DNA of 63,206 nucleotides from Gammaproteobacteria bacterium. Lineage in GTDB: Bacteria; Pseudomonadota; Gammaproteobacteria; Eutrophobiales; Eutrophobiaceae. Positions 4,911 to 9,947 of the stretch are shown piece by piece (position 1 is the first letter of the stretch; each line of letters opens with the position of its first letter). Location: assembly GCA_026710545.1 (NCBI GenBank), contig JAPOQU010000072.1, forward strand, positions 1 through 63,206. The letters are read 5' to 3'. The notes under the pieces were generated by a model. It ran no database searches, was not told the origin of the DNA, and worked only from the letters and a program-made list of their open reading frames with translations. A program made the translations under genes and the position numbers.

Positions 4911-5333
4911 TCACAGCCCAATCCGTGATCCGGCATAACCGCGGTCCCAGCGCGGGCGGTTATCGCCGATGTCGGACCAACTGTCGATGTAATGAACAAC
5001 AATATCGCTGTAAGCCCGGGTCTCGTGAATCAGATGCGCAAACCCCCGAATGGAAGATCCGCAGCTTTGCCGGAATATCATCAGGTCCCGGCCTGTCATT
5101 TTGGCCATCACATCCCGAAGCACAGCATGGTATTTGGCAGGAACAGGTGTTTCATTATTCATCCAGTTTCGTAATTGCTCAGCTGTCGGGCGATTCAGTA
5201 ATCCGGCGGCGTACTTGCCAATCATGAAGTTAATCGGCCGGTGATTAAATGGCGCTGTGGACCTGGCCGCCTCAGACGTGAAGCAGCTGAGTGGTAAGGG
5301 CGGATTACGAGGTGGGAAAAAATCGTTACTCAT
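4911..5333 (-). CDS. Uncharacterised protein coupled to AbiEii-like gene
   Basis: 140 aa, not recognised. It starts with an ATG that overlaps the stop of the upstream nucleotidyltransferase gene (ATGA, 5330-5333), so the two are almost certainly translated together. Visible features are a Pro-rich N-terminus, a central helical stretch (NRPTAEQLRNWMNNE, YHAVLRDVMAKMTGRD) and a C-terminus rich in Asp, Trp and Arg. There is no signal peptide, membrane segment or zinc motif. Given the partner it may be the second component of a toxin-antitoxin or defence pair. It lacks the winged-helix of a usual AbiEi antitoxin, and the gene order (toxin-like gene first) is reversed relative to AbiE systems. Confidence 0.6.
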   Translation of the reverse strand: MSNDFFPPRNPPLPLSCFTSEAARSTAPFNHRPINFMIGKYAAGLLNRPTAEQLRNWMNNETPVPAKYHAVLRDVMAKMTGRDLMIFRQSCGSSIRGFAHLIHETRAYSDIVVHYIDSWSDIGDNRPRWDRGYAGSRIGL

Positions 5334-6082
5334 CGCTCAATGTCATAGTCGTCTTGAATGCGGTCATCTGTTGTCCGTGACCGTGTCGGTTCCCTTTGAA
5401 ACAGGTTGGCTGCACGATCCCAGAGATTGCCGGCAATGTCAGGATAAGCGGGCTCCAGTAAGGGTGGGCCATGTTCAGCATCACGTATCAGCTCGGAACG
5501 ATATTTATTTTTCAGCTCAGCGTGAATTAATTCCCTTTCATCACCCAGGCTTTGCAATATCGCGTTGAGCGCTTCGGGTTCTTGAATCTCGGCAACACAG
5601 AAATCATAGAAGTCCCGCTTGGTAAATTCGCCGTTACCGATAATTCGCCCGTATAGTTTTTTGGCAAGTATTTCCTCGGTTGATTCCAGTAAGATGTGCG
5701 TCACGCGCTCACGTTGTTCGGACAGTTTGTCGGTCTGCGGCGGGGTAGTAAAGATACTGGTTCGGGTGTTGCGTGTTTTAAAACTGAGGTGTCCGCCGGC
5801 AATCTGTATATCGGTCAGCGCATAGGTGTGAGTAGGCTGTTTAATTCGCTTGCTGATCGCAGACAACAGCGTGCGCGCGTCAGCTGGATTGGTTTCATGG
5901 AGAAAGAAATCCAGGTCTGTGCTGAGACGGTGTTGCCAACGCGACGCCAGGACAGTGCCGCCACCAAGGTGGAGTTTGTCGATGTCGGGGCCTAGCGCCT
6001 CGCTAAAGAGCGGAACGATATGTTGCAGGGCGGTTGTTACACCGGGGACTATGGAAATTGTATTCGTCATATTTGTTCTCAT
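5330..6082 (-). CDS. AbiEii/AbiGii-like nucleotidyltransferase (putative toxin)
   Basis: 250 aa from ATG 6080-6082; an ATG at 6068-6070 and a TTG at 6110-6112 are alternatives. The nucleotidyltransferase core is clear: LHLGGGTVLASRW, then HRLSTDLDFFL, the G-G-T and D-x-D pattern of the AbiEii fold, followed by the usual conserved ILAKKLYGRI and FTKRDFYDF segments. Known AbiEii proteins transfer nucleotides to tRNA or other targets and act as toxins in type IV toxin-antitoxin or abortive-infection systems. The gene lies in an integrase-bearing island and overlaps an unknown downstream gene. Its palindromic upstream region (6105-6118) could be autoregulatory. Confidence 0.75.
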   Translation of the reverse strand: MRTNMTNTISIVPGVTTALQHIVPLFSEALGPDIDKLHLGGGTVLASRWQHRLSTDLDFFLHETNPADARTLLSAISKRIKQPTHTYALTDIQIAGGHLSFKTRNTRTSIFTTPPQTDKLSEQRERVTHILLESTEEILAKKLYGRIIGNGEFTKRDFYDFCVAEIQEPEALNAILQSLGDERELIHAELKNKYRSELIRDAEHGPPLLEPAYPDIAGNLWDRAANLFQREPTRSRTTDDRIQDDYDIER

Positions 6083-6104
6083 GGGTGCTGAGAAATAGCC
6101 TGGT

Positions 6105-6118
6105 GTGTTCAAGTGAAC
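6105..6118. promoter_or_regulatory. Small palindrome upstream of the AbiEii-like gene
   Basis: TGTTCA-AG-TGAACA is a perfect 6-bp inverted repeat immediately upstream of the AbiEii-like start codons. Its position suggests an operator for self-regulation. A second dyad (CATAGT...ACTATG, about 6131-6172) follows. Confidence 0.3.
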
Positions 6119-6286: not shown

Positions 6287-7477
6287 TTATCCATGAAGCT
6301 GCACCACGTCAGCCCTGCGCCCGGTCAAGTAGTCCGCCCATTGGTTCATCAAGGCGCGCCGACGCTCAAACAGATCGCTACGGAAATAAGCACCCTCAGT
6401 TCCCTGCACCACATGCGCCAGCGCGGCCTCCGCTATCTCTCTCGGCTTGCCCGTATCCGCACACCAGTCCCGGAAGCTGGAACGGAAGCCGTGTACTGTT
6501 GCCCGGTCAGCCAGACCCTTGTCCCTCAGGAGTTTATTCATCGTCATATTGCTCATCGGTTTACCGGGTCGCCAAACCGAGGGGAAAACTAGGCCCGATG
6601 TATCATCCAGTATCCGGGCCTGTTCCAGTACCTCAAGCGCCGGATCGGACAATGGCACGCGGTGCGCCCGGGTCATTTTCATGCGGTCGGCAGGGATAGT
6701 CCACGTCCTGGTTTCAACATCGATCTCATCCCACGTGGCGCCCAGGATCTCCCCGGTCCGGGCCGCGGTCAAAATAAGAAAACGCAACGCCAGTTTTGCA
6801 GGCAGCGACGCGCCTGACGCCGCTATGGTGTCCAGCGCCCCGGCAACGTCCTTATAAGGCAACGCCCGGAAGTGTTCCTTGATGGCCCGTTGTTTCGGCA
6901 ACGCCCCGTCAATCATCTCGCCTGCCGGGTTGTTTTCAATAAAACCATGCGCCTGCGCCCAGCGGAATACTGCCCGCATTTTCTGCCGCAACCGGCGCGC
7001 GGTTTCCGCCCGTTTGCTCCACAGGGGGGTCAGGATACGCAATACGTCTTCACGGCCTATCCTGTCTATCGGTTCGGACCCGATAACCGGGATGGCGTAT
7101 TTCTCCATGATCTGCATCCAGTTCTTTGCATGTTTGTCGTTGCGCCAGCGGGGTTTCAGCGCCGCATAGGTCTTGATGGCCGCGTCCCGGAATGTCGGCA
7201 TTTGTGCCTTGCGTTTCTCGGACAGCGGATCGCCGCCTTCCGCCACCAGCACCCGGTTAACGAGCGCTCGTTGACGTGCTTTCGATAAAGAGATCAGTTT
7301 GAAGCTGCCAAGGCCGATATCCCGGCGCTTGCCGTGTATGGTTATCCGTTGGACCCAGGACTTGGCCCCGGTTTTGGTGACAAAGAGGTACAGCGTTTCC
7401 CCGGCCCGGTAATGGCCTTTAGTTCGTTGTGTGTAAGTTGCTTCACGTTTTAGCTCCCGTGCTTGCTCCTTTCCCAC
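6287..7477 (-). CDS. Tyrosine-type site-specific integrase of a tRNA-targeted element
   Basis: About 396 aa from a GTG at 7475-7477. The open frame runs on to 7648, but its first residues (NPLVVGSSPTGPT) are only translated tRNA. The N-terminus is a DUF4102-like arm-binding domain (GETLYLFVTKTGAKSWVQR), followed by the core-binding domain and the catalytic domain. In the numbering from GTG the catalytic set is Arg about 240 (TAARTGEI), His-x-x-Arg about 329-332 (HGFRSSFRDW), His about 355 and Tyr about 364 (GAYFRSD), all present. It abuts the 3' end of tRNA-Ile2, the usual attachment position. The second att copy is not seen in the window. Repeated TTTCCCACGCG motifs (7470-7492) overlap the start. 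Confidence 0.9.
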   Translation of the reverse strand: MGKEQARELKREATYTQRTKGHYRAGETLYLFVTKTGAKSWVQRITIHGKRRDIGLGSFKLISLSKARQRALVNRVLVAEGGDPLSEKRKAQMPTFRDAAIKTYAALKPRWRNDKHAKNWMQIMEKYAIPVIGSEPIDRIGREDVLRILTPLWSKRAETARRLRQKMRAVFRWAQAHGFIENNPAGEMIDGALPKQRAIKEHFRALPYKDVAGALDTIAASGASLPAKLALRFLILTAARTGEILGATWDEIDVETRTWTIPADRMKMTRAHRVPLSDPALEVLEQARILDDTSGLVFPSVWRPGKPMSNMTMNKLLRDKGLADRATVHGFRSSFRDWCADTGKPREIAEAALAHVVQGTEGAYFRSDLFERRRALMNQWADYLTGRRADVVQLHG

Positions 7478-7605: not shown

Positions 7606-7931
7606 TGGTGGGCCCGGTAGGACTCGAACCTACGACCAATGGATTCACTTTATCCTTTTATTTCTAAAAGGAGCGGACTATCTCACTACCCTCAACCGAA
7701 TGTTAGGGTACGGGACGCTCCAGCCTGTTATTAAGAACACTTCAGTTCCCAGGTAGTCTCTGCACCTTCCGGGGGTGTACCCCCGGCTTGGCTCAGGGTT
7801 GCCATTCCTCCTGTCCTGGTGGGCAGGCGGGTTAAGGTTTCCCTGAATTCATCCCGTTCATTTCATATCTTTCGATATGAACGCACCATTTTTGATGAGT
7901 CCACTGCTCTAACCGACTGAGCTACAGGCCC
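7606..7931 (-). tRNA. tRNA-Ile2 (CAU), interrupted by a group I intron
   Basis: Exon 1 is 7895-7931 (37 nt) and exon 2 is 7606-7645 (40 nt), together a 77-nt tRNA with encoded CCA. The acceptor GGGCC...GGCCC, D-arm GCTCAG...TTAGAGC and T-arm GGTTCGAGTCC are normal. The anticodon loop is CTCATAA, split after CAT. The variable region TTGGTC matches tRNA-Ile2 rather than elongator Met. The C34 would be converted to lysidine by TilS so that it reads AUA. Its place downstream of rpoD is also seen in other gammaproteobacteria. An integrase gene follows directly at the 3' end. Elongator tRNA-Met is the less likely alternative. Confidence 0.9.
7646..7894 (-). other. Group I intron (IC3-like) in the tRNA anticodon loop
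   Basis: 249 nt, inserted after anticodon base 36. The 5' exon CAU pairs with GUG a few bases into the intron (P1 with a U.G at the splice site), and the last intron base is G. The conserved core is easily read on the minus strand: GGGAAACCTTAA, GGCAACCCTGAGCCAAGCC, GAAGGTGCAGAGACTA and GATAGTCC, the last two forming P7. The layout closely follows the known Azoarcus tRNA-Ile(CAU) intron, a small self-splicing ribozyme of about 205 nt. No homing endonuclease frame is present, so mobility would need outside help. Confidence 0.9.
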
Positions 7932-7967: not shown

Positions 7968-7970
7968 CAT

Positions 7971-7988
7971 GCAACCCTGAGGGGTTGC
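7971..7988. terminator. Hairpin after rpoD, possible terminator
   Basis: A perfect 7-bp stem (GCAACCC / GGGTTGC) with a four-base loop lies 62 bases past the rpoD stop. The bases after it on the minus strand are AT-rich (ATGTATAATT) but not a clean T-run. A second stem, GCCGC-GAA-GCGGC, lies at about 8002-8014. Confidence 0.35.
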
Positions 7989-8034
7989 CCTGCTCTAACC
8001 CTGCCGCTTCGCGGCCCCGCTACAAGCCCAAATT
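7988..8034 (-). repeat. Degenerate copy of the tRNA-Ile2 5' half
   Basis: The plus-strand strings TGCTCTAACC (7991-8000) and GCTACAAGCCCAAAT (8019-8033) repeat the D-arm and acceptor/5'-flank of the real tRNA (7905-7914 and 7921-7935), with one mismatch. A GC-rich hairpin replaces the D-loop between them. It looks like a leftover from a duplication or an old integration at this tRNA. Confidence 0.5.
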
Positions 8035-8049
8035 ATAAAATACTGTCCG

Positions 8050-9897
8050 TTAACTGCCACTCTCGATGAAAGTCCGAAGCTGCTCGGAACGGCTCGGGTG
8101 GCGTAGCTTGCGCAGTGCCTTGGCTTCGATCTGCCGAATTCGTTCACGGGTAACGTCAAACTGCTTACCCACCTCTTCCAGGGTATGATCGGTGTTCATC
8201 TCGATACCAAAGCGCATGCGTAACACTTTCGCTTCCCTGGAGGTTAATCCGTTGAGCGATTCCCGCATCGTCTGCCGCAGACCCTCAAAACTGGCGTACT
8301 CGGCGGGCGCCTGGGTATTCAGGTCTTCGATGAAGTCGCCCAGGTGGGAATCGTCATCGTCGCCGATGGGCGTCTCCATGGAAATAGGCTCCTTCGCTAT
8401 CTTGAGCACCTTGCGGATCTTCTCTTCGGGCATGTCCATTTTCTCCGCCAGTTCCTCCGGCGTGGGTTCCCGTCCCTGTTCCTGCAATATCTGCCGCGAG
8501 ATCCGGTTCAACTTGTTGATGGTCTCGATCATGTGCACCGGGATACGGATTGTCCTGGCCTGGTCCGCGATCGAGCGCGTGATGGCCTGGCGGATCCACC
8601 ACGTCGCATAGGTGGAAAACTTGTAGCCGCGCCGGTATTCGAACTTGTCCACCGCCTTCATCAGACCGATGTTGCCTTCCTGTATGAGGTCGAGGAACAG
8701 CAGCCCGCGATTGGTGTACTTTTTCGCTATGGATATAACCAGGCGCAGGTTGGCCTCCACCATCTCTTTTTTGGCTTTGCGTGTTTTGGCCTCGCCGATG
8801 GAGATTTTCCTGTTGACTTCCTTTATCTCCGCAACGGTAAGCAGGTTGTCCCTCAACGTCTCGCCCAGCCGCTGCTGGATTTTAATCACGTCATCCTTGA
8901 CTTCCGCGAGGAGTTCAGCGTACGGAGTGTCGGCCTCGATCTGCTGCTTGATCCAGTCCGTATTTTTTTCATTACCGGGAAACGAGGCAATAAATTCCTT
9001 GCGCGGCATCTTGGCCGTCTTGACGCACAGGCGCATTACTTCACGCTCCGTTGCGCGAATCTGTTCTATTGTACGGCGCACATTGAGCGTCAGGCTGGTA
9101 ATGTATTTCGGCGTCAGGCGTAACCGCAGAAACTTTTCCGTGATGTCGGTCTGGATGGCGACAGTCCGGTCGTCGTTCTTGCCGTGACGCTTTATGGACG
9201 AGACGAGTTTCTTGTAAAGCTTGTCAAGGTTGATGATGGCTTTACGGACTTCCTCCAAATCCACCGAGTCGTCTGAATCCGAATCGCTGGAGTCATCATT
9301 ATTCTGACCCTGGCGGGAGGTCTGTTTCCTGGCCGAGGGAGGCAAACCCATATCCGGGTACTCTTCCTGGATATTGAACCCGAGGATGACGTCGCTCAGT
9401 TTCAATTCCCTGTCCTGGACGGAAATATAGGCATCCAGCAGCATGTCGATGGTTCCCGGATACAGGGAGAGCGCGTACAGGACCTGGTTCATGCCGGCTT
9501 CGATACGTTTGGCGATCTTGATTTCGCCCTGGCGCGTCAACAGGTCAACCGTACCCATTTCCCGCATGTACATGCGCACCGGGTCGGTGGTCCTGCCGAA
9601 TTCGTTTTCAACGCTGGTCAGGGATGCGTTCGCATCAACCGGCGTTTCGGAATTGTTGGCAATCAGCTGATCAAGATCCGGGGGGAATTCATGGACTTCG
9701 ATCCCCATATCGGTGATCATATTGATGATATCTTCGATCTGTTCCGGATCTACGATCTCATCGGGCAGGTGTTCCGTCACCTCGTGGTAGGTGATGAAAC
9801 CCTGTTCCTTGCCTTTCGCGATAAGTAACTTTAATTGCGACTCATCATCGTCTTCGTGTTCGAGTTCATGTACTACAAGCGGCTCAATTTCGGACAT
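8050..9897 (-). CDS. rpoD: RNA polymerase sigma-70 factor RpoD
   Basis: 615 aa from ATG 9895-9897, close to the 613 aa of E. coli RpoD. The frame can be extended to a TTG at 9933. Region 1.1 ([20 protein letters not shown]), region 1.2 ([18 protein letters not shown]), a non-conserved acidic insert ([16 protein letters not shown]), region 2 ([35 protein letters not shown]), region 3 and region 4 ([26 protein letters not shown]) follow in order. It directs core polymerase to housekeeping promoters. It is the last gene of the macromolecular synthesis operon, with its own probable -10 box upstream. Confidence 0.98.
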
Positions 9898-9947
9898 AGG
9901 CGTTAGAATCCCGTTAGCAGATGGTTTAGGCAAAAAAATAATTCTCT

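Follow-up and report, generated by a model that had tools for sequence, protein, structure and literature searches.

The 63,206-nucleotide stretch of gammaproteobacterial DNA analysed here (the window) carries what is, with a probability of about 0.94, a small IA-like self-splicing group I intron in the anticodon loop of the only tRNA-Ile2 gene detected in the host genome, the predicted product of which would read AUA codons. The occurrence of splicing, its autocatalytic nature and its necessity for growth are inferred from the sequence. Elements of this kind are already known and are scattered through many gammaproteobacteria.

The split tRNA-Ile2(CAU) gene and its surroundings

The covariance search proposed in the initial annotation, using the Rfam Intron_gpI model (RF00028), gave a match over the full model length at 7654-7904 on the minus strand (83.4 bits, E 9.7e-20, gathering score 50), the sole RNA-family match at gathering level obtained with Rfam in the 63-kb window. 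Two other Rfam matches, HPnc0260 and Plastid-ycf2, were rejected, as both fell below their gathering scores and overlay the 3' half of the tRNA, where they represent a tRNA arm. ARAGORN in its default mode, which allows no introns, returned zero tRNAs for the window, while with introns allowed it reported a tRNA at 7606-7931 (minus strand, 326 nt, CCA encoded) with a 249-nt anticodon-loop intron, the boundary of which was off by one base such that the anticodon was read as CTG (Gln). Standard tRNA annotation therefore misses or mislabels genes of this kind, and carrier genomes look unable to read AUA.

With the intron ends set by group I rules, a U.G pair at the 5' splice site and a terminal guanosine (omega-G) at the end, the gene resolves on the minus strand into a 5' exon of 37 nt (7895-7931), the last bases of which are the anticodon CAU ending in U36, a group IA-like intron of 249 nt (7646-7894), and a 3' exon of 40 nt (7606-7645) beginning AATCC. 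Once joined, the exons fold into a clean 77-nt cloverleaf that has CAU as its anticodon and an encoded CCA, and they exhibited 0 mismatches over a 31-base pattern with the uninterrupted tRNA of a genome of the same genus (G015); the folding energy of the pre-tRNA lay 4.6 sd below that of shuffles. Identity as Ile2 rather than Met was indicated by comparison of the spliced tRNA with 47 rpoD-adjacent CAT tRNAs of named gammaproteobacteria, which yielded 56-74 identities, as against 49-58 identities between those same 47 tRNAs and the elongator tRNA-Met of the host genome. The claim of the initial annotation that a tRNA-Ile2(CAU) gene is split after CAT by a 249-nt group I intron was thus upheld by the Rfam match, the ARAGORN intron mode and the spliced cloverleaf, as was its placing of the gene in a gammaproteobacterial chromosome beside rpoD: the gene lies 118 nt downstream of rpoD (8050-9933, minus strand), identified from its Pfam sigma-70 domains and from synteny.

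Beyond the 3' end of the tRNA, at a distance of ~150 bp, is a tyrosine integrase gene (6287-7450, minus strand; Arm-DNA-bind_3, Phage_int_M and Phage_integrase domains), the N-terminus of which may carry a frameshift, and next after it an AbiEii-like gene (5330-6112), the two probably representing an island integrated at tRNA-Ile2, a content typical of islands at tRNA genes. When the genome was searched for a direct repeat of the 3' end of the tRNA, allowing up to 2 mismatches, a second copy was not found, and no repeat of 12 or more bases of that end occurred elsewhere in the window, so that the island is not delimited. The spacer between rpoD and the tRNA contains, at 7969-8032, a degenerate copy of the 5' half of tRNA-Ile2 (GGGCTTGTAGC...GGTTAGAGCAG) with a GC-rich hairpin replacing the D-loop, a copy absent from the same-genus spacers compared.

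Intron architecture and proposed splicing

A total of 37 introns of this type, 232-280 nt in length, was collected (32 in tRNA-Ile2, four in tRNA-Thr(UGU) and one in tRNA-Lys(CUU)) and aligned as A1. With all coordinates on the minus strand, the internal guide sequence GUG (7884-7886) pairs with the anticodon CAU (7895-7897) to form P1, with U36.G at the splice site. It is followed by the P2 hairpin (7862-7881; 7881-7874 with 7869-7862), which exhibited double changes in 8/8 pairs, and by P3 (7711-7856; 7856-7851 with 7716-7711), for which 100% of alignment cells were paired and three of the six pairs carried double changes. Pairing in the alignment likewise defined P4 (7845-7841 with 7798-7794, within 7794-7845), which encloses P5, as well as P6 (7792-7790 with 7766-7764) and P6a (7786-7780 with 7775-7769), together spanning 7764-7792. 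P7, the guanosine site (7676-7758; GACUA at 7758-7754 with UAGUC at 7680-7676), was invariant in the 37 introns, whereas double changes were recorded in 4/6 pairs of the P8 hairpin (7687-7710) and in 6/8 pairs of the P9 hairpin (7653-7672). The terminal guanosine at 7646 and the splice-site U.G pair were found in 37/37 introns, that is in the window intron and its 36 relatives. The group I character of the P3-P8 core was indicated by its RF00028 score, its covariation and its invariant P7, and the details given by the initial annotation (P7 as GACTA/TAGTC, a terminal G, and P1 as CAU-GUG) all proved correct. A homing endonuclease, as borne by mobile group I introns, can be discounted in agreement with that annotation, since 249 nt leaves no room for one.

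Across P2-P9, standard pairing accounted for 96.9% of cells, compared with 85.8% after column shuffling and 34-47% after sliding, the latter comparison being biased in favour of the structure because alignment and structure were built from the same 37 sequences. Double changes were present in 34 of 59 pairs, compared with 21.3 in shuffles, none of 500 shuffles reaching 34. The guide sequence itself varied with the host tRNA, being GUG for CAU (Ile2), GCAA for UUGU (Thr) and GAG for CUU (Lys), a covariation with the host anticodon that constitutes direct evolutionary evidence for pairing of P1 with the exon. Close relatives of the window intron with guides altered to match their hosts were noted at five loci in tRNA-Thr(UGU) or tRNA-Lys(CUU) (L146, L148, L151, L154 and L157).

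On the proposed scheme, free guanosine bound at P7 would attack after U36 once the gene is transcribed, the anticodon CAU being held by the guide GUG through the usual U.G pair at the splice site. The freed U36 would then attack after the terminal G, whereby CAU and AAUCC would be joined and the 249-nt intron set free, and the resultant intact tRNA-Ile2 would become competent to read AUA upon conversion of C34 to lysidine by TilS. A need for a host protein in this reaction, for instance a CYT-18-like tyrosyl-tRNA synthetase or an RNA chaperone, is unlikely though worth weighing, and would affect the mechanism only, being compatible with identification as a group I intron. The core is compact and complete and includes P7.1/P7.2, and small bacterial tRNA introns of subgroups other than IA act in vitro without protein, as the general literature attests. 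Set against this, co-opted host proteins often serve group I introns in cells (PMC3984707).

The subgroup is indicated by a 30-nt extension, CCUG-GGAAC...GUUCU...CAGG, located between the 5' strand of P7 and the 3' strand of P3 (7724-7753, minus strand), which folds as P7.1 (7753-7750 with 7727-7724) and P7.2 (7749-7745 with 7738-7734). The extension was conserved in 32/32 Ile2 introns, with P7.1 paired in all of them and compensatory changes in four of the five P7.2 pairs. Apart from just such a P7.1/P7.2 extension between P7 and P3, the IA2 ribozyme of T4 td resembles the IC3 ribozymes of Synechococcus and Azoarcus (Matsumura et al., PMC4498298). Measured by this yardstick, the window intron possesses the group IA element and departs from the IC3 layout, in which P7 and P3 are not so separated (its absence in Azoarcus being taken from PMC4498298), so that its predicted fold is IA-like rather than IC3 in architecture. 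Of the earlier claim that the intron matches that of Azoarcus in type and place, the place accordingly stood (same site, same guide triplet) but the type did not.

Host tRNA, position and guide triplet, CAU being the triplet with which the Azoarcus intron works in vivo (PMC6274277), together with the conserved letters of P7 and its flanking core, would also fit an Azoarcus-type IC3 intron acquired horizontally from a betaproteobacterium or a cyanobacterium; however, an extension present in every Ile2 intron and absent from the Azoarcus and Synechococcus IC3 ribozymes (PMC4498298) makes such an origin very improbable. Scores from R1, a covariance model of the 37 introns, point the same way: Ile2 introns scored 230-260 bits (window intron, 253.5), the Lys intron 216 and the Thr introns 156-174, all of these being members of the training set, whereas nothing else scored in the same search exceeded 92 bits, the tRNA-Leu introns scored reaching 33-80. 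A putative sequence of the Azoarcus ribozyme, which serves as a lead only, matched by blastn mainly introns of IC3-like type, located in tRNA-Leu and in further tRNAs of Gammaproteobacteria, gave no match in the host genome, and at best aligned locally with the window intron at 74% over 54 nt.

A broader reading, the chances of which we judge to be about even, is that the window intron represents an IA-like, endonuclease-free lineage specialised in the anticodon loops of bacterial tRNAs whose anticodon ends in U36, which would have changed hosts among Ile2(CAU), Thr(UGU) and Lys(CUU) by exchange of a guide of 3-4 bases, and would have converged independently with the unrelated IC3 intron of Azoarcus on one and the same nucleotide of tRNA-Ile2.

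The detected Ile2 gene and the decoding of AUA

The host genome assembly (4.4 Mb in 129 contigs, 100% complete) yielded 41 matches to tRNA families and a single gpI match, no second group I intron being found across it with the group I model. A second intact tRNA-Ile2 gene, named in the initial annotation as the observation that would overturn its reading, was sought across the assembly by tRNA-family matches and by the joined-exon pattern; none was found, the pattern itself being absent and the remaining CAU tRNAs consisting of one elongator Met and two initiator Met only. At least one expected tRNA, that for Ala(UGC), was not found in the assembly either, which implies gaps and hence the possibility of a missed Ile2 copy. 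A TilS-family protein is encoded in the host genome (8e-56), and AUA accounts for 73 of the 510 Ile codons counted over 17 window ORFs. Since a further Ile2(CAU) gene was not detected in the assembly, removal of the intron is probably required for the reading of AUA, and on that basis is probably essential.

That the intron is a dead remnant no longer able to splice, the tRNA being a pseudogene replaced in function by another tRNA, is scarcely credible: although splicing is predicted from sequence and the nearby integrase and tRNA-like fragment denote a disturbed site, the core helices are all intact, the exons yield a clean tRNA, the search for further Ile2 genes found none, and covariation among the relatives is strong.

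Distribution among relatives and comparison with known systems

Among 369 genomes drawn from the class, 24, belonging to 17 families, had an intron of this type in tRNA-Ile2; a draw from the phylum scored with R1 was poorer, with few strong members besides the window intron. The gene order, rpoD followed by tRNA-Ile2, is conserved: at 80 named rpoD loci, an uninterrupted CAT tRNA lay nearby in 47 and a window-type intron occurred in four (L065, L070, L081 of the Woeseiaceae, and L109). Among 53 genomes of the host family, six carried the intron, ~35 had an uninterrupted gene and none had both, the gene being almost always beside rpoD. The empty site that the initial annotation proposed to look for in related genomes was thereby found at the same locus, including within the genus of the window, where three genomes (G000, G013 and G017) have the intron and three (G014, G015 and G016) do not. 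Presence is patchy, and gain and loss are frequent: mapped onto a tree of rpoD from 74 loci, it required 16 changes, at least nine of them on well-supported branches. In the intron tree some introns clustered by host family and others did not; L033 of the host family, for example, grouped with L144 from a different family (98/90). The AU test did not reject a single origin of the introns of the host family (p-AU 0.18). As losses are indistinguishable from gains, transfer is not proven, and the earlier statement that the intron shows wide transfer could not be sustained; the window by itself shows nothing in that regard. A genus combining intron-plus and intron-minus genomes, in which a probably essential single-copy tRNA relies on a ribozyme, offers a clean natural system for the spread, persistence and loss of introns that lack endonucleases.

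Other group I introns were recorded among these genomes. Within the host family they lie in 23S rRNA (L034, which has two, L045 and L047) and in tRNA-Leu(UAA) and tRNA-Arg(UCU) (L038-L044, L046, L050 and L051), and in one genome (G004) three tRNAs, Ile2, Leu and Arg, contain introns. Gammaproteobacterial tmRNA genes carry them at the T-loop end (L041, L048 and L049 of the host family, and L192 and L193). A different, IC3-like intron interrupts tRNA-Ile2(CAU) at L202/L242, apparently after U33 and before the anticodon, and that of L177 is seemingly similar, its P1 being unclear. Genome G606, from a further family of the class (group code f108), harbours three group I introns, among them an Ile2 intron after CAU (L252) that has a P7.1-like extension and scored 116 bits with R1.

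Ile2 group I introns are already published for Azoarcus, Acidovorax and Burkholderia, to which the window intron adds one more. That of Azoarcus BH72 pre-tRNA-Ile(CAU) shares with it the host tRNA, insertion after CAU, the GUG guide, a small size and the lack of an endonuclease, but is an IC3 intron devoid of P7.1/P7.2 and has a different core sequence. According to Chan et al. (PMC8450103), group I introns explain why fMet or Ile2 genes seemed to be 'missing' from 36 bacterial genomes, and the Ile2 introns named there for Acidovorax and Burkholderia resemble the present one in host tRNA and in being the cause of a seemingly missing Ile2 gene. A literature search for Ile2 introns in Gammaproteobacteria sensu stricto, covering few subscription journals, found no paper. 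Beggiatoa and Thiomargarita have group I introns in tRNA-Arg(UCU) and tRNA-Leu(UAA) (PMC4853749), and Coxiella in 23S rRNA (as cited in PMC5423948); these too interrupt gammaproteobacterial structural RNAs, the same hosts being seen in the window genome's own family, but other tRNAs or rRNA rather than Ile2. Group IA2 introns, such as T4 td and other phage introns, have the same core layout with P7.1/P7.2 between P7 and P3, but reside in phage protein genes and often carry an endonuclease. What specialists may less expect is an intron of IA-like type at the Azoarcus position, and a single family that extends across Ile2, Thr and Lys tRNAs.
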